IMG/VR virus record: IMGVR_UViG_3300026512_000043
Span: 1 to 32,793 of that record
Reading direction: 5' to 3' (one strand)
Length of the DNA stretch: 32,793 bases
Source of the DNA: a virus
The notes beneath the pieces are model-generated. The model was not told the origin of the DNA. It saw only the letters and a list, made by a program, of their open reading frames with translations, and did no database searches. The translations under genes and the position numbers were made by a program. Shown piece after piece: positions 4,837-32,793 of the stretch (positions are counted from its first letter, which is position 1; each line of letters opens with the position of its first letter).

Positions 4837-6834
4837 TTGTTGGTTAACAAAGGAATGCAAACTAGAGCTGATGTGGTAATAAGAAGAACATATGCACGAC
4901 CATTAGATGAAGATGAAACAAAGTTTGAAACTTGGGAAGATATATGTAGACGAGTAAGATTACATCAAGAATGGCTATGGGTTAGAGCACTAGAACGAGA
5001 GCTTAATTTTGTAGAAGAAAATGAGCTTGCTGAATTAGAAACAATGATGTTAGCTAGAGAAGTGTCGGTAAGTGGAAGAACTCTATGGCTAGGAAATACT
5101 AAGATTGCAAAAACTAGAGAGGCATCTCAATTTAATTGTAGTTTTACTGAAGTTGAAACTGTATATGATGTTGTCGATGTTCTCTGGTTGCTTATGCAGG
5201 GATGTGGCGTTGGATTTAAACCAATAGTTGGTTCACTTAATGGATTTTTTAAACCTATAGAAAATATAGAAGTAATAAGAACAAAGAGAACTACTAAAGG
5301 TGGTATTGAGCATAATGTCGAAACATATAACAAAGAAACAAAACATTGGACAATCAAAGTTGGAGACTCAGCTGAAGCATGGTCTAAATCAATCGGAAAA
5401 TTACTTGCAGGGAAAAACGATGTTGATACCCTTACTTTCGACTTCTCAGAGTTACGACCAGCTGGTGAGAGGCTTAAAGGGTATGGCTGGATAAGTTCTG
5501 GCGATGAAGCAATATCTATTGCATTTGTAGCTATAGCTAAGATACTTAATAGAAAAGCTGGTGAATTATTAACTAGGATTGATATATTAGACTTAGTAAA
5601 TTGGTTAGGAACTATACTTTCAAGTAGACGAAGTGCTCAGATAGCATTATTCGAATATGGAAAACCTGAATGGGAAGAATTTAGTATAGCTAAAAGAGAG
5701 TATTGGGTAAACAATCCGCAGAGAGTACAATCTAATAATAGCATAGTATTTTATGATAAACCAAGTAGAGATGAGCTTAAACATATTTTTCAGTTAATGG
5801 AAGATAGTGGAGGTTCTGAACCTGGTTTTGTTAATGGTGAAACTGCACTTGCAAGAGCTCCTTGGTTTAAAGGTAGCAATCCATGTTGTGAGATATTACT
5901 TGGAAATAAAGCTTTCTGTAACTTAATTGAAATAGATATTGCCAAGTTTAGAGGTAATACTGTCCATATGAATAGAGTCATAGAACTTGCTTCTAGAGCT
6001 AATTATAGACAGACATTAGTTAATCTAAAAGATGGTATACTACAAGAAGCTTGGCATTTAAATAATGAATTTTTAAGACTCATGGGTGTAGGACTTACTG
6101 GAATATGTCAAAGAGATGACTTGTCGGAATATGATATACAAAGCATGAAAAATATAGCTATACATAGTGCATATACTATGGCTGATGAACTCGGTTTTCA
6201 AAGACCAAAGAATGTGACTACGGTAAAGCCATCTGGAACATTATCAAAAGTAATGAGCACTACAGAAGGTGTTCATAAACCACTAGGTAGATATATATTC
6301 AATAATATAAACTTTGGTAAGAATGACCCTATACTTCCAAGATTAAAGGAAGCTGGTTACGAAGTCAGGGATAATCCAAACATGCCAGATGAAGGAACTA
6401 TAGTTAAATTTCCAGTAGAATGGAATCAAGTAAAATTTGACAAAGCAATAAGAACTGATGGTGAAGTTGTTGAAGTTAATAATGATACTGCTGTATCTCA
6501 GCTTGAAAGATATAAGAAATATAATGTGTATTGGTGTCAGCAAAATGTAAGTAATACAATAAGTTATAGTCCAGATGAAGTTCCAGATATTATAGATTGG
6601 CTTCTTGACAATTGGGAACATTACGTTGGAGTATCTTTTCTTTACAGAATGGACCCAAGTAAGACTGCTATGGATTTAGGATATTTGTACTTACCACAAG
6701 AAGTTACAACTAAAACATTATATGAAGAATATATTAGTCAGCTTAAAGATGTTAATTTTAACAACATAGAGGATTCATTAGACAATGAAATGGAGACTCA
6801 AGAATGTGCAGGTGGCTCATGTCCAGTGAAATAA
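4837..6834 (+). CDS. nrdJ: Adenosylcobalamin-dependent (class II) ribonucleoside triphosphate reductase
   Basis: It reduces ribonucleotides to deoxyribonucleotides using a B12-derived radical, supplying dNTPs without needing oxygen. The sequence follows the monomeric Lactobacillus-type enzyme: Cys101 in FNCSF is the first redox cysteine, NPCCEI gives the thiyl-radical Cys350 and Glu352, and Cys361 in FCNL is the second redox cysteine. The 11-residue spacing from Cys350 to Cys361 equals C408 to C419 of the L. leichmannii enzyme. PSGTLSKV is also present, and the C-terminal shuttle pair is Cys657/Cys662 (CAGGSC). The start is probably TTG at 4837 or 4840, because AAAAGGAGAA lies immediately upstream. 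The ATG at 4855 has only a cramped ribosome site. At 665 residues it is slightly shorter than the 738-residue reference enzyme. Confidence 0.93.
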   Translation: MLVNKGMQTRADVVIRRTYARPLDEDETKFETWEDICRRVRLHQEWLWVRALERELNFVEENELAELETMMLAREVSVSGRTLWLGNTKIAKTREASQFNCSFTEVETVYDVVDVLWLLMQGCGVGFKPIVGSLNGFFKPIENIEVIRTKRTTKGGIEHNVETYNKETKHWTIKVGDSAEAWSKSIGKLLAGKNDVDTLTFDFSELRPAGERLKGYGWISSGDEAISIAFVAIAKILNRKAGELLTRIDILDLVNWLGTILSSRRSAQIALFEYGKPEWEEFSIAKREYWVNNPQRVQSNNSIVFYDKPSRDELKHIFQLMEDSGGSEPGFVNGETALARAPWFKGSNPCCEILLGNKAFCNLIEIDIAKFRGNTVHMNRVIELASRANYRQTLVNLKDGILQEAWHLNNEFLRLMGVGLTGICQRDDLSEYDIQSMKNIAIHSAYTMADELGFQRPKNVTTVKPSGTLSKVMSTTEGVHKPLGRYIFNNINFGKNDPILPRLKEAGYEVRDNPNMPDEGTIVKFPVEWNQVKFDKAIRTDGEVVEVNNDTAVSQLERYKKYNVYWCQQNVSNTISYSPDEVPDIIDWLLDNWEHYVGVSFLYRMDPSKTAMDLGYLYLPQEVTTKTLYEEYISQLKDVNFNNIEDSLDNEMETQECAGGSCPVK

Positions 6835-13339: not shown

Positions 13340-15367
13340 ATGACTGAATCTGAAAGGCGAACAAAAGCTTTTAAGGATTTTAGACATGATTATAAAAAGG
13401 CAAAGTCTGCAAAGACTGAAATAGATGGACTTATTTCTGATTGGAATGACCTTTATTATGGTAAAGGAAATAAGAACTCAAACACTAATGGTTCTAAGAT
13501 AGTTATGAAGGAAATAGCTAAACAAATTGAATGGCAGAAGCCAAACATAAGCGAACCTTTCATTGGTACTTCACACCCTATAAGAATAAGTGGAAATATA
13601 CCATCTTCTCAAAAGAGAATAATACAAAAATATGCAAACAATCAGTTTACTAATGACTTTGATAGAGATACATTTATTAATCAATTAACAGATGTGATGA
13701 TTAGAGAAGGAACTGTGTGGACTAGGACTTCATGGAAGTTTGAAGAGGAATTGCAAGAAGACAACTTTCCAAGCATGACTATGCAAGAGATTTTAGAGCG
13801 TTCTCAATTAGGTGAAGACCCGTCAAAGATTGAACAAAATAAATCTAAAGCTGGACAACCTGAGACATTTAATGTTATTTATGCTTCATATTCTGATTTA
13901 GATAATAAACCTTTTGTTGAGGTTTGTAGAAATGAGCATATATTTCCAGACCCTGCTGCAAGAAGTGAACAAGAATTAAGATTTGTCATTCATAGAAGAT
14001 ATGAAACGCTGTCTGACTTGAGAGCTTCTGGAAAATATGATGAAGAAGATTTAGATAGATTAAAGGATAAGATATCTGCTGGTGATGATACTATACTTGG
14101 TAGCGCTAGAGATAGTGACTCTCAATCGAATGGTGTTGATGCAACTTCTCAAACTCAAGATTCCGTAAGACAGAAGATAGAAATATTAGAGTATTGGGGA
14201 TATTATGATTTTGATGGAGATGGAATTGCGGAGCCGATAATGGCTTCATGGAGTGCTAAGCATGATGTAGATTTAATGTTAGAAGATAATCCTATGCCTA
14301 GTAAAAAGATACCATTTCAGCGTGCAGTTTATTCTGAGCGTTCATATTCATTATGGGGAAATGCACTTGCATTCTTTTTAGGAGATAATCAAAAGGCTAA
14401 GACTGGTTTAGTTCGTGGTATTATAGATAATATGTCACTTGCAAATAATGGTCAAAAGTTAATACAACAAGGTGGACTTGATTATGTAAACTTTAAGAGA
14501 CTTAGGAATAAAGAGAGACATGTATTTACAACTAAAAATCCAAAAGATATAGTTTATGAAGTAAAACACAATAGTGTATCTTCTGATGTTTTCAGTTCAA
14601 TACAAATGTTTAACAATGAAACTGAACAATTATCTGGAGTAGGGGCTGGTGGTCCTGCATTGACACAGGGAAGTCTTAACAAAGACGACAACGGAGATAT
14701 GCAGTTAACAATGTCTCAACAAAGAATGGCAGGAACTGTGAGAAATATAGCTAACCTTATGGGTAAAGTTGTATTTGAGTGGATAACGATGGCTGAAAAT
14801 TGGCTTACTAATGAACAAGTAGAGTCTTTGTTTAGTGAAAATGAACAGGCTGATTATTACGCATTTAGAAGTTCAAAAAGAGCTGGTGTAAGTTGTAAGG
14901 TTGGAACTGAAGTAGTTAGAGGGATGAAGCTTAAGCAATTAAATATGCTTATGCAACAAGCTAAAGTACTTGGTGAGAAAACTCCTCCAGGAACAATAGA
15001 GAGTTTAACTGCTGAAATGTTTGAATTATTTGATAAGTATGATGAAGCTGAAGCTATAAGAAATTATAAGCCAGAGCCTGATCCTATGGCTCAAATGATA
15101 CAAGAACTTGAGTTAAAGAAACTTAAGCTAGAATTAGCTAAGCTTGAAACTGATATTAGAAATTCTCAGACTGAAGGACAATTAAACGTTGCTAAAGCTG
15201 AAAATGAAAGAGCTGATGCTATATCTACATTAAAGTACAAAGAAGCTCAGTCTGCTGAGAAATGGGCTAAGACTGAAGGTCATGGAGTAGATAGTGCATT
15301 GAAGCCTGCTAAAGCAGTTGCTGAAATAGATTCAATTCTAAAATCTGCAAATAGCACACGAATATAA
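13340..15367 (+). CDS. Portal protein (head-tail connector)
   Basis: This protein should form the dodecameric ring at the capsid vertex through which DNA enters and leaves. The 675-residue product fits large podovirus portals: a helical N-terminus, an alpha/beta core with a Gly-rich turn (SGVGAGGPALTQGSLNKDD), and a long Lys/Glu/Ala coiled C-terminal barrel region (LELKKLKLELAKLE). It sits immediately before the scaffold and capsid genes, as expected. The nearest good ribosome site (GGAG at 13309-13312) is 27 bases from the ATG at 13340. Translation may really begin at an in-frame ATC at 13319, adding seven residues. No Walker or nuclease motifs are present. Confidence 0.85.
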   Translation: MTESERRTKAFKDFRHDYKKAKSAKTEIDGLISDWNDLYYGKGNKNSNTNGSKIVMKEIAKQIEWQKPNISEPFIGTSHPIRISGNIPSSQKRIIQKYANNQFTNDFDRDTFINQLTDVMIREGTVWTRTSWKFEEELQEDNFPSMTMQEILERSQLGEDPSKIEQNKSKAGQPETFNVIYASYSDLDNKPFVEVCRNEHIFPDPAARSEQELRFVIHRRYETLSDLRASGKYDEEDLDRLKDKISAGDDTILGSARDSDSQSNGVDATSQTQDSVRQKIEILEYWGYYDFDGDGIAEPIMASWSAKHDVDLMLEDNPMPSKKIPFQRAVYSERSYSLWGNALAFFLGDNQKAKTGLVRGIIDNMSLANNGQKLIQQGGLDYVNFKRLRNKERHVFTTKNPKDIVYEVKHNSVSSDVFSSIQMFNNETEQLSGVGAGGPALTQGSLNKDDNGDMQLTMSQQRMAGTVRNIANLMGKVVFEWITMAENWLTNEQVESLFSENEQADYYAFRSSKRAGVSCKVGTEVVRGMKLKQLNMLMQQAKVLGEKTPPGTIESLTAEMFELFDKYDEAEAIRNYKPEPDPMAQMIQELELKKLKLELAKLETDIRNSQTEGQLNVAKAENERADAISTLKYKEAQSAEKWAKTEGHGVDSALKPAKAVAEIDSILKSANSTRI

Positions 15368-15391: not shown

Positions 15392-16423
15392 ATGACATTT
15401 GAAGAAGAAATGGAGAAGTTAAAAGCTGATGCTATTGCTGAAGTTGAAGACTTAGATAACGGAGAATTAGTTGATGATAACATCAATGATGAAGATAACG
15501 GAGAAAATAATGATACAATTGAAGAAGATTCTATTGATGATTTGGGAGAAAATGATAACTCCTCTGACAATGATGAATCTGAAAATGGAAGAAACGACGA
15601 TAAATCTGGAGACGACAATTCTGGAGATAATGATTCTGACAATGGTGATAATGACTTTAGTCCAATTGATGTAGATTTTGCTGGACAAAAGATAACATTA
15701 AAAAATAAAGATGAATTAAGTTCTTTTTTAAAACGTGGTGCTGAAGCTTTAACTAGACCTGAAGACACAATGAAGACTGAAAAAGCCATAATTGAACAAG
15801 GACAACTTAACCAAGATGACCTTAAACTTTTAGTTGATATTAAAAATGGAGACCTTAATGCTCTGGCTAAACTTGCTGAAAGTTCAAAGATTGACCATTT
15901 AGATATAGTTGATTCATCTGCTAGTGAGTATAAAGGAACTTTTGAACCTACATCTCCGTCTGCTGTAGAAGAAGTTGCTGCTGAAATAGTAAGAGATAAA
16001 GAACATGCTGTTAAATTTCAAGATGTTTTACATAGCTCTGGAAGTAACGATTTTGTTAATTCCCTTAGTTCTAATGCAGACCATTTACGTTCGTTTTCAA
16101 TGCACGTCAAAAGTGGATTAGCTGAAAAAGCTATGCCTGAAGCAAGAACTAATTTTGCTTTATATGGTGGTAATTTTTTCGAACATTATAAGGCTTCAGC
16201 TATTAAGATAGCTCAGTCTGAGTTAGATACTCAACCAAATTTGGATAAGTCTACTAAAAATAATGAGAGAACATTAACAGAAAAGGAGAAAGAACTGCGT
16301 AAAAAAGCTAGTTCTAATTCAACTATAAATAAGAACTCTGGCTCTAATGCTAAAACTTATGATGATGTAATGGACTTATCAAATGAAGACTTTGAATCTT
16401 TAAAGAGAAACATTAAGAAGTAA
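15392..16423 (+). CDS. Capsid assembly scaffold protein
   Basis: The 343-residue product has a very acidic, Asp/Glu/Asn-rich first 90 residues (runs such as DDNINDEDNGENNDTIEED). A folded middle and a basic helical C-terminus (RTLTEKEKELRKKASS, ending SLKRNIKK) follow. Acidic body and basic C-terminal helix are typical of scaffolds that bind the capsid protein through the basic end and leave before packaging. Position between portal and major capsid protein agrees. The start has an AAAGGGGG ribosome site 8 bases upstream. Confidence 0.8.
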   Translation: MTFEEEMEKLKADAIAEVEDLDNGELVDDNINDEDNGENNDTIEEDSIDDLGENDNSSDNDESENGRNDDKSGDDNSGDNDSDNGDNDFSPIDVDFAGQKITLKNKDELSSFLKRGAEALTRPEDTMKTEKAIIEQGQLNQDDLKLLVDIKNGDLNALAKLAESSKIDHLDIVDSSASEYKGTFEPTSPSAVEEVAAEIVRDKEHAVKFQDVLHSSGSNDFVNSLSSNADHLRSFSMHVKSGLAEKAMPEARTNFALYGGNFFEHYKASAIKIAQSELDTQPNLDKSTKNNERTLTEKEKELRKKASSNSTINKNSGSNAKTYDDVMDLSNEDFESLKRNIKK

Positions 16424-16544: not shown

Positions 16545-17591
16545 ATGTCAGGATTAATTGGAAGAACACCAGTACAAGGCTCAGCAAGTTATTTGTCAGC
16601 TAAGGTTACAGCTGTATACGATAGAACGTTATTAGAAAGAGCTGTTGCAAATCAAATATTTGATATGTTTGGTCAGTCAAAAGTAGTTCCAGCAAATAGT
16701 AATGCTAAAAAAGCATTTGCTTATAGATATAAAAATATCTTACCTGCTACTACTCCATTGGCTGAGTATAATGGTTCAAATATAAAAGCTCCAAATAAGA
16801 TAGTTAGAGAAGAAGTTGAATATGGTGTAGCTCATTATGGTGATTATATCACTTATACTGATGAATTAGATTTATATGACTTTGACACTATAGAGTCGTC
16901 TTTTCTGGATATTCTTGGTGACCAAGCGTCATTAACTATCGATACAATAACAAGAGATACTCTTAGAGCTGGTACAAATGTTGTATATGCTGATGGTGCC
17001 GTTAGTAGACTTGAAGTTGCTGACAGTAAGAAAGTTCATGTTTCTAAAGACTTTGATATTATGGCTATTAAGCTTAAAAATCAAGGTGGTAAGAAATTTA
17101 AGAAAGTTATTACTGCAAGTACAAAAGTTGGAACTGCTGCTGTTAGAAGTGCGTATGTTGGTATTGTTGACCCATCGTTAACTCCAGATTTAAGAGCTCT
17201 TCCAGGATGGCAGAATGTAGAGAATTACTCTGATTATTCTAAAGCTTATCCAAATGAGATTGGTAGAATTGGTGATTTCCGTATCATAGAATCTGACAAT
17301 AACGAACCTATTGCTAACCAAGGTACTAATACAGATACAAATGTATACCTATCTTTATTCTTTGCAGAAAATGCTTATGCAACTGTAACGCTTAGAGGTA
17401 AAGGTGGTATTGTTACTAAGGTTAAACCATTAGGTTCATCTGGAGCTGAAGACCCACTAGACCAATATGGTACTATAGGTTGGAAAGCTATCCATGGTGC
17501 AGCAATCTTAAACGAAGCTTGGTTGATTAGAACTGAAGCTACAGCAACTGTTGAAGATGCTACTGCTAAACACTACTACGACTATTCTTAG
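16545..17591 (+). CDS. Major capsid protein, N4-gp56 family
   Basis: This is the HK97-fold shell protein. Family hallmarks of the N4-gp56 group are visible in order: a start with RTLLERAVANQIFDMFGQ, then LPATTPLAEYNG, a segment like YGDYITYTDELDLYDFD, then LGDQASLTIDTITRDTLRAGTNVVYADG. The 348-residue length is slightly short for the group but complete. The preceding scaffold gene, the structured leader and the strong hairpin after the stop suggest separate high-level expression. Presence of this family agrees with the N4-like virion polymerase, though it also occurs in other phages. Confidence 0.9.
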   Translation: MSGLIGRTPVQGSASYLSAKVTAVYDRTLLERAVANQIFDMFGQSKVVPANSNAKKAFAYRYKNILPATTPLAEYNGSNIKAPNKIVREEVEYGVAHYGDYITYTDELDLYDFDTIESSFLDILGDQASLTIDTITRDTLRAGTNVVYADGAVSRLEVADSKKVHVSKDFDIMAIKLKNQGGKKFKKVITASTKVGTAAVRSAYVGIVDPSLTPDLRALPGWQNVENYSDYSKAYPNEIGRIGDFRIIESDNNEPIANQGTNTDTNVYLSLFFAENAYATVTLRGKGGIVTKVKPLGSSGAEDPLDQYGTIGWKAIHGAAILNEAWLIRTEATATVEDATAKHYYDYS

Positions 17592-19950: not shown

Positions 19951-22900
19951 ATGGCAATGCCATTAAGTAATGAAGAGGTTTTAGCGTCGCTAATGGGTGA
20001 CAAGACTCCTCTACAGGATTCCTTATTAAACCAAGTTTCTGATTCTGATAGATTTTTAAATCAACTTGAGAAAGCTGGTACTGGTCTTTTATCTAACTAT
20101 AATAACCTTACAGGGAATATAGCTGATGAAATTAATCAATCTGGTTCTAGTGCAACTGCTCAATTATTGTATGATATTAAAGCTAATGAGGAAACAAATT
20201 TAGCTGAAAAGGTATGGGAGGGGTTTAAATCCCCTTTCACCGATACTGATGCAGGAGCTATCAATCAAATATTTGGTGAGAACTTTACTCAGCAATTAAG
20301 AGATTCGGCTCAGAAAAAGAGTCGTGCAATGGATGCTAAGAACGAACTAGCTCAACAATATAGCGGAGGTGGCTTAGGTCAATTCGCTGGTGATATAGTA
20401 ACTATGTTACCTATAGCAAAGTTTGGACGCATGTCTAGAACTAATTCTGCTATAACACAAGGAGCTACGAAGCTTCAAACTGCTAAAGCTGTAGGAGCTG
20501 ATGCACTTGAAAATGCTGGAGTTTTATCTTCTACTGAGTTTTTACTTGGTAAGGCATATGGACAAAGTGATGCTGAAGCAACTGCTAATGCATTAATGGC
20601 TGGTGGTATCGGTTTAGTTGGAACTCCTTTATTAGGTGCAGGTAAGGCATTTATGCATGCGACACCATTAGAGAAAGCTCAAATTAAACTAGAAACTGGT
20701 CAAGCATTAACTGATGAGGACATGGCTATTCTTGGAGGTGGTATAAAAACCAAATCTGGAAGAGAGTTTGAAGCTCCAAAGGTTGAAGAATCTAAGCGAG
20801 CCGTAGAAAATGTCGAATATGATGTAGTTGAGCCTAAGGCTGAAGTAGGCAAGCCTATTCCTGACCAAACTTTTGTACCTGAAGTCAATAATCCTAAGAA
20901 AATATCCTATGGTTATGATGACAGAGGAAGAGTTTATACAGAAGAATCTAGTCTATTAAGTCCACAAGGGGCTTCTACTGAGAAAGCAAGTTTTAAGCAA
21001 AAAGCTAAACCTGAAGTTGAAAATGCTAAGGCAGAAGTAGATAGACGTTTAGAATTTTTTGATAGAGATGAGCAATTGAGGCAACGCTATGGTCAAGCTC
21101 AAGCTAAAACAACTGAGAAACGTACATCTAATCAGACTAGAGACAGCTTTGAGAAAGACCAATATAAAAGCATAAGAGATGATAAGAGTCTACCTCGAGA
21201 AGTTCGCAGTGATGCTAGTGCTAAGCTTAAGGAATTAAATTCAAAAGCTAATAGTGTTAATGTTCCTGATGGACATAACTATTCTTTTGTTTCTCCTGAT
21301 GGAAAAAACATTACTGGAAAAGTAGTAAAGGAAAGTGACGACAGGATTGTTGTTGAATACATTGACCCATATTCTGGAAAGACTAGAAAATCTGTGTTTA
21401 ATAAAAAGACTGGTAAAGCTGAATCAGCTGTCGATGTCAATCATCCTGAGCTTGCAAGCAAAACTTATTCTGGTGGAAAAAAGATTGACACTGCTAGTCA
21501 AAAAAAGTCTAGTAAATCAACCGACAAAGAAGCAAATAAGCGTGCTAAAGCTAAACTTGATGAGCAAACCTCTGTAGAATCTAAGACTTCTTATACTAGA
21601 CAGAATAAACTCTCTGATGAGTATAAAGCTTTTGTTAAGGCTAAGGGTACTCCAAGAAGTACCGTAACAGATGAGATAACTGCGAAATCAATTACTGAAA
21701 AAGCGGAATCTAAGTTAAGCGAAGTAAAGAAAGCAATACGAAAAGTAACAATAGCTGAGAAACAAAAGGCTAAGGACTTTGATATATCTAATATAACTGC
21801 AAGTCAAAGAAAAGCATATCGTGATGATATAGCATTGATTGAGGATTATACTGGAGCTAAACAAGACCTTAACTTATTTCATCAAGGTAAGTTAAGCGGA
21901 GAAGAGTTGCGATATCGTGAGGGTAGACGCATAGATGATAGAATTTCAAGAAGTGGTGAACAACAATTCAAAACTGACGAAGAAGCTATTGCCTATAAGG
22001 AAGCTACTGCGAAAGAATATCGTGACGTTGGTATCGAGGTAAAAGACGACATCAAGATGAAAAAAGAAGCTGGTACTGGGACAGAAAAACCTGAGAAGAA
22101 AGCTGAGAGAGAGTCTAAAGAAATTGCTGAGGCTCAAAGGAGTAATGAATTTCTACAAAAGGCACTTGCTCAAGCTAGAAGAACTGGTGAAAATCCTAAG
22201 TATAAGTCTGGCGAAAAGGCTGGTCAACCTCGTTTAACGGAGAGCCAGTTTAAAGATGCACGCGATAAAATTCTAACAATTGGAGAGATTGCAGATAAAA
22301 CTATTCCTGTTGTGATTAAAGGCAAAAGAACTGGTGCTATAAAACAAGCCAGAGACTTAGCTAATAAAAGAGTTAGTGATAAGCAAAGAGAACTATTAGG
22401 TATAGATGAATCTAAAAAGTTATTGCCTAAAGATATTAATTTCAAGGATACGACTATAGATGCTTCTAATTCGATTATGCAGATAATATCTGTAATACTT
22501 GGAAGCAAAAGGCTTGCTAAGTTATCTAAACTTTATGGTGGAGAAGATGACATTCGTTCTATTATAGGTAAAACTATGGAAAAGAATGGGCTAAAGATGC
22601 CTAAGGTCTTAGGTTCTGATGGCAAAGAAATGTCATGGAAAGAACTTGTTAAGCCGTTATTTATGACAGAGAATTATGGTCAAGGTCGAAAAGGTCTTGT
22701 TCGTAATATAATGAAAGAACAAAAAGTTAATAGAATCGATGCTGAAAAGTTCCTTGCTGAATATAATAAAGCTAGTGATATGCTTATTCCAGAAATGGTT
22801 GAGCTTAGAGATTTAATATATAAGCACATGGATAATAATCAAAACGGTACATTTAAATGGACTTTGCCTGATGGTTTTAAAGTTGAATTCAAACTAACTA

Positions 22901-25900
22901 GAAGAGCTGATGGTACTATATCTATGAGAGGGAAGAATATTCCTTTCAAGGTTGAAACTGGAGATTTAGATGATTTTTCTAGAGCATTAATGCCAAATCT
23001 TATTCACTCAATAGATGCTTATGTAGCTAGAAGAATGAATAAGGAAGGTATACCTACAACTCACGATGCACTTACTGTGCCTAAAGGCATGGAACAAAAA
23101 GCTAAAGATGCATATACTGAAGTTATGGTCGAACTTAATGAGTCTAGCATACTCCATGATATCATGAAGGAACTTGGATATAAAGGCACTCCTAAGAAGG
23201 TTGGAGATTTAGAATCTTCGGCTATTGAGAAATCTGAGTATAAGCTAAGTGTTGAACACGAAGCTGGTATTCCAGAGGTTGCTAAAGTTAGAGAGTTTGA
23301 TGTTTCAAAGCAGAACACTAAAGAAGAAGTCATGCGTGATTTTATGGCTAGTGGTAATGTTAGAAATGCTCCTACTAATCAGCTAATAGATTCAATGGTT
23401 ACTGAAGCTGGCTATAGGACTATGTCTGTAGCTAGAGACTCAGACGATGTATTTGAAAGACAGATAGCATTAGCTCATCAGTCGGCAAAATATAATCCTA
23501 AGCAAGCACTTTCAGCTCCAGAGGGAGTTAATAAGAAAGCTTGGGATGCTACACAAGAACGCATTTTTAATGAGTCTAGAGCCAAGTTAGAATATAACCC
23601 ACTATTGAATGATGTATTGCAGGGAGAACGCAAGTACTTTAAACAAGATGGCAGTATTGTTGGTGGTAAGTTTGAATCTATGGAGGCTGTTCTTAAAAAG
23701 GAACAAGAAGCTATTGAGAAGATGGGCGAAGACCCTAAGACTTATGCTAAAAAGAAAGCTGAAGCTTATTCATATAAGCAAGACCAAGAACTAACTAATG
23801 AGCAACTAAATACTAGAGCTCAAGTTGATGCTGTAACACAAGAAACTTACAAAGATACTAATGCTTATAAAACTTTATGGGATGAGCAGAACTCTGCAAG
23901 TCCTAAGTTTAAGGAGTTTACTGAGCTAGAAAATGTTCGTAATATTCATAAGTCAGATGTTGATAGAAAGGTTGAAGTGTTGTTTGACAGGCTCAAGACT
24001 ATTCCAAAGGAGAAGCAAGCTAAGCTTAAAGTTCTAATGGACAGTGATTATGAGGCTATCAATGGTATGACGAAAGCTCAAGCTGATGAGATGTGGACTA
24101 ACCACAAAGCGTTGCTTGATATAGTTGGCAAAGAAGTAGAACAAACTGCAAAAGGTATAGGCAAAAAGTCTGAACAATATGGGTATTACTTAAATAATCC
24201 TCATCTAATTGCAAAGAGATATGGCTTAGATTCCAGTGCAGAACAAGCTATAGACAAGTTGATTTCTATTAGAGCAATGGAGCTTAACGATGCTTGGAAA
24301 GTTGTAGATGAACTTCAAGGTGATGTTGATATGAAATTTGTTTTAGATACTATGGCTCAAAAGAGACACTTATCTGAGCAATTTTTATTTGCTAATAATT
24401 CTGAGAAGATTGTCAAGGGCTTTCAATCTGAAGTCTATCGTGGTCAAAAGCGCATAGATAAAGATGGTAAGGTTCGTTGGGATGCAGAATCCATGGACGA
24501 AATGGGTATCGTTGGTCGTGAACTAGAAAACAAAAAGGTTGGTACGGTTTACAACAAAGATGTTCAGAAGTTTAATAATCTTGAAGATGAGCTTGAGTTT
24601 ATGACTAAGAATAGACTAAAGAAAGGTCCTGATGTTAATGGTAAATCTACTTATAGATATATAGCTGAAGAGGATATTCGTTTAGAAGCTGGAAAGGTTG
24701 ATGATTTAGCTAACACTTTATCTGAGACTGTACGTTCAGTATCTCAAAAAGTTAAAGATAGAGGACTTATCCTTAGAGTACTTGACACTTTAGAAAGGGA
24801 CGAATCATTACTTTTTTCTAAGACACAAAAACCAGGAATGACTAAGCTTGGAACAGATGAATTACAAAGATTACCTTACGACTTACGAGATACAATGCAG
24901 TATGTTGATAAGGAGCTTGTGGCTAAACTAATTGGTCGTGATGAAGTAAGACTTATTAATACTAAGTTAGCAAGAAAGTATAAGCTAAATGAACAGCAAT
25001 GGGCTAAGGTTTCTGATAGATTGTTAAATAATTTTGGAACAATGTTTAAGCAGAATGTAGTATTGAAAAATGCTTCATCATATGTAAACTCATTCCTAGT
25101 TAATCAATCATATGCATTGGCTCATGGTATATCTCCAAAGAAAATGTTAGAGTCACAGACTGCAGCAATGCGTGATATGAAAGAGCTTGATGATATTCTT
25201 AATAAACTTTCATTGCAACAAATTACTGGAGCAAAACGTGATAAGATTTTAAATGACAAATTGAAAAACAACTTATTGTGGAAAATGGAACGTGCTGGAT
25301 TGTCTACAAATAGGGTAGAAGGTGTTGTTGGTGACAATGACTTACTTAGTGGAATGTTTAAGGACATGACTGAAAAAGCTCATATTCCTGCTGTATTTAC
25401 GGCTGGTCAATATGTTACCTTAAATCAGAAGACTCCGTTAGGTAGAGGTTCATTGAAGTTATTCTCAGTACTTGATACTTCAGGCAGATATATGATTGCT
25501 AAAAAGCATTTAGATGATGGTATGGATATTAAAAGTGCCGTACATGAAGCTAATGGTATTTATGGCAATATGGATAAGATGGTTCCTGAAACTATTGAGC
25601 TAGTTGACAAGTATGGATTTATTCCTTTTGCAAAGTGGTTCAGTTTAACTGCTCCTAAGTTACTACAACATACTAGAAATAATCCTAAAAAGGCTTTTGC
25701 TTTAGCTGTTGTATTATATGCTTTTGGGCAAGAGACTGATACTAACGTTGCTTCATTTAATCCACTTCAGGGAATGGCTGATTTCTTTGAAAGTTCAACA
25801 ATAGGCAAGCTTACAGATATGAAAGAAATGGGCGTTGTTTATTCTGCCAAAAGCAGAGCAATGAATACTGTGCTTCCAAATTACATTACTTCATATACAC

Positions 25901-25995
25901 AAGACCCAATGGGTGGGATATGGAGAGATATAAGAAAGCCAAAACTAAAGGGTCCATTTCGTGGAATCACACAAAAGATTATTGAAGGAGATTAA
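19951..25995 (+). CDS. Giant ejection protein carrying an N4-like virion RNA polymerase domain
   Basis: The 2014-residue product should be packaged in the virion and pass into the cell with the DNA, where its polymerase domain could transcribe the first genes. Single-subunit RNA polymerase motifs occur in order. DDRGR at 323-327 is followed by VY and PQG (338-340), as in T7 (DWRGRVY...PQG). Motif A is DASNS with Asp837. Motif B is K901-P-L-F-M-T-x2-Y909-G, with the T7 spacing K631 to Y639. Motif C is PNLIHS then THDA (His1038, Asp1039). Residues 1-240 are ejection-protein-like with two hydrophobic stretches (about 146-165 and 212-236). The C-terminus (IPFAKWFSLTAPKLLQHTRN, 1891 onward) is typical of podovirus internal proteins. 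DxxGR and motif A are about 510 residues apart (about 116 in T7), separated by a charged, low-complexity segment. N4 gp50 is about 3500 residues, so this is a compact version. No transglycosylase motif is seen. Confidence 0.85.
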   Translation: MAMPLSNEEVLASLMGDKTPLQDSLLNQVSDSDRFLNQLEKAGTGLLSNYNNLTGNIADEINQSGSSATAQLLYDIKANEETNLAEKVWEGFKSPFTDTDAGAINQIFGENFTQQLRDSAQKKSRAMDAKNELAQQYSGGGLGQFAGDIVTMLPIAKFGRMSRTNSAITQGATKLQTAKAVGADALENAGVLSSTEFLLGKAYGQSDAEATANALMAGGIGLVGTPLLGAGKAFMHATPLEKAQIKLETGQALTDEDMAILGGGIKTKSGREFEAPKVEESKRAVENVEYDVVEPKAEVGKPIPDQTFVPEVNNPKKISYGYDDRGRVYTEESSLLSPQGASTEKASFKQKAKPEVENAKAEVDRRLEFFDRDEQLRQRYGQAQAKTTEKRTSNQTRDSFEKDQYKSIRDDKSLPREVRSDASAKLKELNSKANSVNVPDGHNYSFVSPDGKNITGKVVKESDDRIVVEYIDPYSGKTRKSVFNKKTGKAESAVDVNHPELASKTYSGGKKIDTASQKKSSKSTDKEANKRAKAKLDEQTSVESKTSYTRQNKLSDEYKAFVKAKGTPRSTVTDEITAKSITEKAESKLSEVKKAIRKVTIAEKQKAKDFDISNITASQRKAYRDDIALIEDYTGAKQDLNLFHQGKLSGEELRYREGRRIDDRISRSGEQQFKTDEEAIAYKEATAKEYRDVGIEVKDDIKMKKEAGTGTEKPEKKAERESKEIAEAQRSNEFLQKALAQARRTGENPKYKSGEKAGQPRLTESQFKDARDKILTIGEIADKTIPVVIKGKRTGAIKQARDLANKRVSDKQRELLGIDESKKLLPKDINFKDTTIDASNSIMQIISVILGSKRLAKLSKLYGGEDDIRSIIGKTMEKNGLKMPKVLGSDGKEMSWKELVKPLFMTENYGQGRKGLVRNIMKEQKVNRIDAEKFLAEYNKASDMLIPEMVELRDLIYKHMDNNQNGTFKWTLPDGFKVEFKLTRRADGTISMRGKNIPFKVETGDLDDFSRALMPNLIHSIDAYVARRMNKEGIPTTHDALTVPKGMEQKAKDAYTEVMVELNESSILHDIMKELGYKGTPKKVGDLESSAIEKSEYKLSVEHEAGIPEVAKVREFDVSKQNTKEEVMRDFMASGNVRNAPTNQLIDSMVTEAGYRTMSVARDSDDVFERQIALAHQSAKYNPKQALSAPEGVNKKAWDATQERIFNESRAKLEYNPLLNDVLQGERKYFKQDGSIVGGKFESMEAVLKKEQEAIEKMGEDPKTYAKKKAEAYSYKQDQELTNEQLNTRAQVDAVTQETYKDTNAYKTLWDEQNSASPKFKEFTELENVRNIHKSDVDRKVEVLFDRLKTIPKEKQAKLKVLMDSDYEAINGMTKAQADEMWTNHKALLDIVGKEVEQTAKGIGKKSEQYGYYLNNPHLIAKRYGLDSSAEQAIDKLISIRAMELNDAWKVVDELQGDVDMKFVLDTMAQKRHLSEQFLFANNSEKIVKGFQSEVYRGQKRIDKDGKVRWDAESMDEMGIVGRELENKKVGTVYNKDVQKFNNLEDELEFMTKNRLKKGPDVNGKSTYRYIAEEDIRLEAGKVDDLANTLSETVRSVSQKVKDRGLILRVLDTLERDESLLFSKTQKPGMTKLGTDELQRLPYDLRDTMQYVDKELVAKLIGRDEVRLINTKLARKYKLNEQQWAKVSDRLLNNFGTMFKQNVVLKNASSYVNSFLVNQSYALAHGISPKKMLESQTAAMRDMKELDDILNKLSLQQITGAKRDKILNDKLKNNLLWKMERAGLSTNRVEGVVGDNDLLSGMFKDMTEKAHIPAVFTAGQYVTLNQKTPLGRGSLKLFSVLDTSGRYMIAKKHLDDGMDIKSAVHEANGIYGNMDKMVPETIELVDKYGFIPFAKWFSLTAPKLLQHTRNNPKKAFALAVVLYAFGQETDTNVASFNPLQGMADFFESSTIGKLTDMKEMGVVYSAKSRAMNTVLPNYITSYTQDPMGGIWRDIRKPKLKGPFRGITQKIIEGD

Positions 25996-31839: not shown

Positions 31840-31847
31840 CAGATGGA

Positions 31848-31922
31848 CATTCACTGTGTGGTATTAGTTTACTAATGGCTTAACATAAGTTTACAAAGTA
31901 TCTTATATTTATACAGTGAATG
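31848..31922 (+). ncRNA. Structured RNA element downstream of the endolysin
   Basis: A perfect 10-bp inverted repeat (CATTCACTGT at 31848-31857, ACAGTGAATG at 31913-31922) closes a 75-nt element. It encloses hairpins ATTAG-TTTA-CTAAT (31863-31876) and ATAAG...CTTAT (31885-31906). The predicted shape is a three-way junction. GGACA and TGTCC just outside offer an extended or alternative outer helix. It shares ACTGTG-N5-TTAG-N4-CTAAT with the element before the gene. Confidence 0.55.
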
Positions 31923-31951
31923 CCTGTCCTTAATCTTTATTTGGATTACAT

Positions 31952-31964
31952 GTTGCGTAGCAAC
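31952..31964. promoter_or_regulatory. Hairpin with 5-bp stem and 3-nt loop (candidate virion-polymerase promoter)
   Basis: GTTGC-GTA-GCAAC forms a perfect 5-bp stem with a 3-nt loop. It is GC-rich compared with its surroundings and needs no bulge. N4 early promoters are recognised as single-strand hairpins of 5-7 bp with 3-nt loops, so this geometry is notable next to a gene for an N4-like polymerase. The loop centre is T on the plus strand and A on the minus strand. N4 prefers a purine there, so a minus-strand promoter would fit better. Confidence 0.3.
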
Positions 31965-31996
31965 CCAATATTCCTCTTATACAATGATTAAAAAAT

Positions 31997-32012
31997 GACC
32001 ATTACTATGGTC
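31997..32012. repeat. Short inverted repeat
   Basis: GACCAT-TACT-ATGGTC is a 6-bp perfect stem with a 4-nt loop. It sits between the 5-bp hairpin and the terminator-like stem, and no T tract follows it. Its function is unknown. Confidence 0.4.
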
Positions 32013-32018
32013 TAAACT

Positions 32019-32067
32019 AGCTGATATTATGCTTTCGTTAGATTGCTTTGATATCAGCTGACTTTTT
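32019..32067 (+). terminator. Probable intrinsic terminator of the late transcript
   Basis: A perfect 9-bp stem AGCTGATAT (32019-32027) / ATATCAGCT (32051-32059) with a 23-nt loop is followed by GAC and five T (32063-32067). It lies 180 bases after the last gene, so it could end the whole late message. The stem is AT-rich and the loop long, which weakens the call. Confidence 0.5.
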
Positions 32068-32113
32068 ACTAAAAAACTATACATATTTATGTATATGTAT
32101 GTGGTAAAAACAT

Positions 32114-32126
32114 AATTAGTAGGTAC
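32114..32126. repeat. 13-base direct repeat, copy 1
   Basis: AATTAGTAGGTAC here and at 32519-32531 is identical, and the preceding bases (CAT versus CAC) are also nearly the same. The copies are 405 bases apart in the noncoding region. They could be a protein binding site or parts of two promoters. Confidence 0.5.
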
Positions 32127-32274
32127 ATAATAGGGTTTTGGAGAACTCCCTATATATACTGAAAAATTATAAAAAAAATACTACTCTTTTAAGCTAGGTT
32201 TAAGTTCCTAGATAGCCTTAAAATTAAAAAAATATTATACATAATAAATGAGTAGTTAAACAGAAGAATACAAG

Positions 32275-32285
32275 CTATGAAGCTT
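32275..32285. repeat. 11-base direct repeat, copy 1
   Basis: CTATGAAGCTT occurs here and at 32452-32462. This copy is embedded in a small stem AAGCT-ATGA-AGCTT. The second copy is followed by CCTTTTT. The repeat is short, so chance is possible. Confidence 0.3.
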
Positions 32286-32307
32286 TATAGGTGGTCTTAT
32301 TGATGGA

Positions 32308-32326
32308 TAGTAACTGTAATGTATTG
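32308..32326 (+). promoter_or_regulatory. CTGT-centred intergenic motif, copy 4
   Basis: TAGT-AA-CTGTAATGTATTG matches the endolysin-leader copy at 15 of 19 positions. Unlike that copy it has no matching right arm nearby. This suggests that the primary sequence, not only the RNA stem, is what is shared. Confidence 0.25.
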
Positions 32327-32404
32327 CTATAACCTTAGATTACTAGCCCGTTTAGGTAAAAATTGTACAAGTAGTGTGACAAGTTATCCTAATCCTGAGA
32401 GCAG

Positions 32405-32415
32405 GAGGTATCCTC
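32405..32415. repeat. Hairpin with 4-bp stem and 3-nt loop
   Basis: GAGG-TAT-CCTC is a small perfect stem with a purine-centred 3-nt loop on the plus strand, shortly before the C8 run. It is comparable in geometry to N4-type promoter hairpins but one pair shorter, so it is weak evidence. Confidence 0.25.
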
Positions 32416-32505
32416 ATGGTACTTCCCCCCCCTCATCAATATAGCATATGTCTATGAAGCTTCCTTTTTAATGTATAGCAAGTCCTATTTATAGGGCATT
32501 TGCAA

Positions 32506-32527
32506 CTACTATTGCCACAATTAGTAG
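32506..32527. repeat. Bulged 9-bp hairpin with 3-nt loop
   Basis: CTACTATTG-CCA-CAA-T-TAGTAG forms nine pairs with one bulged T and a 3-nt loop (TGG on the minus strand, purine-centred). Its right arm is part of the 13-base direct repeat copy 2. Confidence 0.35.
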
Positions 32528-32531
32528 GTAC
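32519..32531. repeat. 13-base direct repeat, copy 2
   Basis: This copy is identical to 32114-32126 (AATTAGTAGGTAC). Here the repeat overlaps the right arm of the bulged hairpin at 32506-32527, whereas the first copy has no such stem. Confidence 0.5.
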
Positions 32532-32568
32532 GTTTACAAAGGTAGTGTAGTCTTATGTGTAGGGTAAC

Positions 32569-32639
32569 CCAAATCCATCCAAATCCATACTATACTATCC
32601 AAACACTACCAAAACCTTACGTTATTGTACCAAATCCAT
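32569..32639. repeat. Iteron-like cluster with 10-bp period
   Basis: CCAAATCCAT occurs exactly three times (32569-32578, 32579-32588, 32630-32639), the first two in tandem. Degenerate CCAAA-starting units lie at 32599 and 32609, in step with a 10-bp period. Spacing of about one helical turn would place all units on one DNA face, as in iteron origins or cooperative operators. Confidence 0.5.
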
Positions 32640-32793
32640 AAATATCTACTTACAATGCTCTACATAATACAATGACCCAATCTTAGCACAATGTCAATCA
32701 GTCCATAGCTTTATCTAAGTATCAACGCCTTCGGCTTTAACTTTAGTGAGTAGTTATAAAACTATTCCGTGGTAAGTCATCAGTACAGCGTTA

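Follow-up and report, generated by a model that had tools for sequence, protein, structure and literature searches.

A putative ejected virion RNA polymerase with an RNAPII/T7-like core at the gp50 position of an N4-related phage

Gene order, relatives and virion-type features

The sequence analysed here, IMGVR_UViG_3300026512_000043, is an incomplete virus record, and the window denotes the whole stretch of 32,793 nt, positions 1 to 32,793. Portal, gp57-type and major capsid genes follow one another in the N4 order, and a single uninterrupted reading frame of 2014 codons lies downstream of them, at a position equivalent to that of N4 gp50. The terminase is closest to those of Schitoviridae phages. 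Judged by the sequences of portal, gp57-type protein, capsid and terminase, the phage thus appears Schitoviridae-like, yet without a gp50-type virion RNA polymerase (vRNAP); we do not claim a formal family.

13340–15367, plus strand: portal protein, same PHROG as N4 gp59 (phrog_1216)
15392–16423, plus strand: probably scaffold, same PHROG as N4 gp57 (phrog_2120)
16545–17591, plus strand: major capsid protein, same PHROG as N4 gp56 (phrog_1357)
19951–25995, plus strand: putative ejected virion RNA polymerase, whole ORF of 2014 aa (ORF call, homologues)

Relatives were obtained from IMG/VR scans, two via the protein itself and two more via the capsid protein:

G001, 3300000502_000003: 1872 aa
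G002, 3300026521_000025: 2308 aa
L032, 3300026521_000022: two ORFs, 1629 and 934 codons
L037, 2893884007_000002: about 2112 aa

The G002 record is probably a whole genome, since the bases at its start are repeated about 128 bp from its end. No relatives were found in GTDB genomes at the sensitivity used, and when the DxxGR island described below was searched for as a DNA pattern, in a strict form that misses AGR codons at one Arg, only a known relative was returned. In L032 (8654–16317), the two ORFs overlap; the first has a single cysteine, within a few residues of its end, and one cysteine of the second is near its start, both at the overlap, and we therefore suspect a frameshift, real or from sequencing, in a cysteine-free chain. 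An extra N-terminal stretch of the KLYKLINPSTGEVKYG...WNRYSNDP type, present in three homologues, L011 (5924–6450), L032 and L033, looks GIY-YIG nuclease-like by eye; Pfam gave no confirmation of such a nuclease.

The composition of the protein is unusual in that cysteine is absent from the window protein and from G001, G002 and L037 (four full-length homologues), where 14 cysteines would be expected in 2014 residues from the 0.70% found in the other proteins of the window (Poisson P ~7e-7). N4 gp50 likewise has no cysteine in 3500 residues, whereas the RNAPII subunits and T7 RNAP contain cysteines. Furthermore, G002 begins with a T7 gp16-like region, its N-terminus giving a match of 2.5e-7 to phrog_342 (internal virion protein with endolysin domain). 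Position, composition and this match are strong but indirect signs of a virion role. An earlier note on this DNA had named the product an ejection protein; the gp50-equivalent locus, the absence of cysteine and the gp16-like N-terminus in one relative bear the name out, while packaging itself is something we infer from them. The same three features speak against an RNA polymerase, or a maker of RNA primers, working inside the infected cell and absent from the virion. Such an enzyme might find a place in a phage like G002, where neither a DNA polymerase nor a primase was recognised among the proteins inspected, but we regard it as very improbable.

Polymerase motifs and the affinity of the core

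All four motifs of the single-subunit RNA polymerases (ssRNAPs), DxxGR, A, B and C, occur in the window protein in canonical order and with their catalytic residues. In the translation, the DxxGR motif reads D323-D-R-G-R327-V-Y and is followed by Q339-G340, while motif B reads K901-P-L-F-M-T-E-N-Y909-G910, that is, K-x7-Y-G with MT within it. The positions below are those of the window, and invariance refers to an alignment of five homologues (the window protein included) and three conventional enzymes.

20875–21006, plus strand: DxxGR island, residues 309–352 (D323–R327, Q339–G340), delimited by conservation and by its match to the RNAPII small-subunit C-terminus
22441–23250, plus strand: ssRNAP palm/fingers core, residues 831–1100 (phrog_2051, phrog_414, PF00940; Foldseek 6dt7_B, E=7e-9)
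22459–22473, plus strand: motif A, D837-A-S-N-S, Asp invariant in all rows
22651–22680, plus strand: motif B, K901-x7-Y909-G910, Lys and Tyr invariant in all rows
22993–23010, plus strand: P1015-N-L-I-H-S1020, Pro and His invariant
23062–23070, plus strand: motif C, H1038-D1039-A, His and Asp invariant

The motif list of the earlier note thus agrees residue by residue with the translation, and its statement that both catalytic Asp residues are retained extends to the whole alignment, where D837 and D1039 are invariant. The Asp of motif A, the Lys and Tyr of motif B and the His-Asp of motif C are kept in five of five homologues, at identities down to 21–27%. The DxxGR motif is DDRGR in two homologues and DEVGR in a third; in the two most distant, it is loosened to DKTHR and DRQAR, but Asp, Arg, Tyr and QG are retained. 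With the three conventional enzymes added, the few invariant columns are the Arg of DxxGR, the Asp of A, the Lys and Tyr of B and the His and Asp of C. Among the three closest homologues, the best-conserved parts are the DxxGR island, the three motifs A, B and C, and residues 1101–1220.

Profile searches place the palm/fingers stretch among the ssRNAPs and suggest to which branch it belongs. In terms of PHROG profiles, phrog_2051 is the family of the N4 RNAPII subunit gp16, phrog_414 is T7-type, phrog_2166 is the family of gp15 and phrog_2206 that of gp50. The stretch matches phrog_2051, 'RNA polymerase', at E=1.8e-24 and phrog_414 at E=3e-14, while the window protein has no phrog_2206 match at E<=10. 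Residues 240–400 alone match positions 388–423 of phrog_414 (E=0.0019), that is, the part containing DxxGR, which precedes the palm match (509–813) in the same linear order. With the core alone as query, Pfam PF00940 (RNA_pol) reaches 24.6 bits, above its cutoff of 22; with the full-length protein, it is not listed. In a sequence search of the PDB, N4 RNAPII is the sole match (E=0.004 with the single sequence, 1e-6 with a three-member profile). The earlier note's reading of a genuine ssRNAP core is thus supported, and the profile E-values, together with the reversed control given below, exclude chance motif matches.

Profile-profile comparison ranks the known enzymes further. The core profile scores 1.3e-29 against the relatives' own RNAPII large subunits and, with hhalign, 8.7e-18 against Schitoviridae gp16 alone, 1.8e-14 against T7-type enzymes and a marginal 0.007 against gp50, the last across 80 columns that cover motif B only. 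On these comparisons, the core seems to belong to the T7/N4-RNAPII branch and not to that of N4's own injected enzyme. The earlier note had described the protein as a compact relative of N4 gp50; with core matches of 9e-18 to gp16 and 2e-14 to T7 RNAP, as opposed to 0.007 to gp50, and no match to the gp50 family, we reject that identity on sequence. Since the core hardly aligns with gp50, any tie between the two lies in gene position and composition.

A maximum-likelihood tree, which is unrooted and short (257 columns), sets the window-protein family apart from RNAPII plus T7 with support of 98.5/100; branching inside the family is weak. An ordinary 780-aa T7-type polymerase (L017) served as reference, and gp50 was left out because it gave no reliable alignment. 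A recent origin from the phage's own RNAPII, which gives the best profile score, was considered and rejected; we do not claim such a derivation because the tree does not nest the family within RNAPII.

The same data bear on whether the window protein is a true orthologue of gp50, both descending from a common ancestral virion polymerase, with gp50 having diverged past recognition and the window lineage having stayed nearer to RNAPII and T7. The two genes share a locus behind homologous capsid genes, the domain order is the same, neither protein has cysteine, Y-G-x-G-x-x-G follows motif B in both, and the family branches outside RNAPII plus T7 and not within RNAPII. On the other hand, the gp50 core is matched at motif B only and far more poorly than gp16, its PHROG is not hit, and its motif A is ExDGxxxG where the window protein has DASNS. 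We hold this orthology to be possible but doubtful; were it correct, the function would be unchanged and only a separate origin would be wrong.

Structure prediction supports a palm/fingers fold in the core. An AlphaFold2 model of residues 285–1099 has a mean pLDDT of 67, with the DxxGR part unresolved, and one of residues 806–1108 reaches a pLDDT of 77 and a pTM of 0.74. For both models, the best PDB match by Foldseek is N4 RNAPII (6dt7_B, E=7e-9 for the core), followed by POLRMT and T7 RNAP. The polymerase fold on whose presence within residues 700–1110 the earlier note had staked its reading is thus predicted at 806–1108. Since two large subunits of RNAPII and a T7-type enzyme were among the sequences in the input alignments, the prediction is support rather than independent proof.

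Domains around the core

The remainder of the chain departs considerably from a conventional ssRNAP.

19951–20670, plus strand: ejection-protein N-terminus, residues 1–240, Gly/Ala-rich and weakly hydrophobic (peak at 210–230); phrog_342 match in G002
21007–21630, plus strand: charged, almost unconserved insert, residues 353–560 (0–8% invariant; mostly missing in G001)
21631–22440, plus strand: conserved helical stretch between DxxGR and motif A, residues 561–830 (20–29% invariant; helical in the model)
23251–25992, plus strand: large C-terminal domain, residues 1101–2014, matching no known family

Residues 1–120 show low conservation among the homologues. Across the 44 residues of the DxxGR island, 52% are invariant in three homologues, compared with 21% before it and 8% after it, and by hhalign the island aligns with the C-terminal ~35 residues of RNAPII small subunits (E=3.7e-6; reversed control, 0.52). 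DxxGR precedes motif A by 514 residues, a distance of about 115 residues in T7 RNAP (T7 numbering). The long insert falls at the natural break of N4 RNAPII, which separates DxxGR in gp15 from motif A in gp16 (PMC4496689). The earlier note mentions neither this spacing nor the insert, nor the lack of a recognisable thumb and N-terminal domain, nor the second polymerase of the relatives. A thumb and an N-terminal, promoter-binding domain could not be recognised, the small-subunit profile matching the DxxGR end and nowhere else in the protein; it is possible that they have been replaced by something unrecognisable.

The missing thumb and N-terminal domain, the loosened DxxGR in two of the five homologues and the fact that the relatives already encode an RNAPII would suit a dead or reduced polymerase domain, kept in an ejection protein for structural or DNA-handling work such as gripping or pulling the entering DNA. 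The columns that are invariant across homologues and enzymes (DxxGR Arg, A Asp, B Lys/Tyr, C His/Asp), however, are those expected of a working active site. We thus consider a dead domain unlikely and, judging from these residues, catalytic activity of the core plausible.

Residues 1101–2014 gave neither a Pfam nor a convincing PHROG match. Directly after the core, a block of 120 residues (1101–1220; 23251–23610) is 44% invariant in three homologues, approximately the level of the catalytic motifs, and matched no known family.

A second polymerase and a proposed role in early transcription

An RNAPII large subunit is encoded in four of the four related records (partial in L037, at the record end), and a gp15-like small subunit in three. 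The window polymerase is one ORF within the structural module, unlike N4 RNAPII with its separate gp15 and gp16 subunits in the early region, and the relatives' true RNAPII is encoded elsewhere; the RNAPII region falls beyond the ends of the window, which is incomplete. With a separate N4-type RNAPII in the relatives, this group of phages seems, like N4, to possess two polymerases. In N4, ejected gp50 makes early RNA, including that for gp15 and gp16, and RNAPII then makes middle RNA (PMC12633501, PMC4496689). By analogy, the product of the ORF would travel in the phage head and be ejected together with the DNA as it enters the host, like gp50; the core would transcribe early genes in the cell ahead of any phage protein synthesis; and the early products would include the phage's own two-subunit RNAPII, which would take over the later genes. 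We consider it fairly probable that the protein is ejected, transcribes early genes and represents a polymerase lineage of its own, which either was captured separately or is an old orthologue of gp50 that has remained T7-like. A search for an early-promoter motif among shared repeats and hairpins with 3–5-nt loops in the gaps gave nothing convincing.

Comparison with known systems brings out the mixed character of the protein. Like gp50 of Schitoviridae, it is very large, cysteine-free and encoded downstream of homologous portal, gp57 and capsid genes in phages that also carry an RNAPII, and it shares the gp50 layout of N-terminal domain, ssRNAP core and large C-terminal domain (PMC12633501). 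Unlike gp50, it has 2014 rather than 3500 aa, DASNS rather than ExDGxxxG, PNxxHS and HDA as in T7 and RNAPII, and the widely separated DxxGR. N4 RNAPII (gp15 plus gp16), on the other hand, is the nearest known core by sequence and fold, and the DxxGR island resembles a gp15-type C-terminus, but the window protein is one chain within a cysteine-free, ejection-type protein on a separate tree branch, and a gp15-type thumb and N-terminus were not found in it. With T7-type single-chain enzymes it shares the four ordered motifs, the K-x7-Y-G spacing and the predicted palm/fingers fold; it differs in lacking a recognised thumb/N-terminal domain and in having a long insert and a fused C-terminal domain.

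Very large proteins encoded downstream of N4-type capsid genes in StenR_269 and vB_PunP_Y3 have been proposed as vRNAPs (PMC10747016, PMC11654794). With the same profiles, neither the protein of StenR_269 (OR838459, L059:2736–9548) nor that of vB_PunP_Y3 (OR779980, L061:24147–34412) gave an ssRNAP motif set or profile match, and both were set aside as relatives of the window protein; their annotation may be wrong, or the proteins may be too divergent. A large protein at the gp50 locus is therefore not automatically a polymerase.

Apart from N4 gp50 and its relatives, no injected T7-type polymerase is known to have been described; other virion polymerases, in phiKZ-like and crAss-like phages, are of multi-subunit or two-barrel type. 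The window protein seems to represent a second type of virion RNA polymerase, and we found no description of such a protein in the open-access literature. An IMG/VR survey of N4-like viruses retained vRNAPs only if they had at least 2,500 aa and ExDGxxxG (PMC10654107); with 2014 aa and DASNS, the window protein would have been dropped, and further such polymerases may thus await discovery among sequences that these filters discard.

We judge it an even chance that ssRNAPs came to be packaged in virions twice, the second time when N4-related phages incorporated a core of RNAPII/T7 type into an ejection protein that stands in for gp50. If so, the core would have been reduced to palm/fingers and a detached DxxGR segment, new domains would supply the thumb and promoter recognition, and each phage would have an injected polymerase and another, from the same branch, that is made once infection has begun. 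The protein may also show the minimum size of an ssRNAP catalytic core. More importantly, gp50 is too divergent to reveal its origin, and an RNAPII/T7-like virion polymerase would be either a second invention or a missing intermediate; because the virion polymerase here is still recognisably RNAPII/T7-like, the question of the origin of gp50 becomes testable.

Some further features of these genomes are recorded here. In G002 (L019–L021; 44764 bp), no DNA polymerase gene was recognised among the subset of ORFs scanned; the genome carries a 5'-3' exonuclease, an AAA protein, a ribonucleotide reductase small chain and ThyX. The small chain is NrdB-type, unlike the ribonucleotide reductase of the window (4837–6834, TTG start), which has weak class II (B12-dependent) domain matches. 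Finally, about 950 bases at 31840–32793 of the window are without a clear gene and contain short direct repeats, CCAAATCCAT three times and AATTAGTAGGTAC twice, as well as a 23-nt imperfect inverted repeat at 32063–32110.
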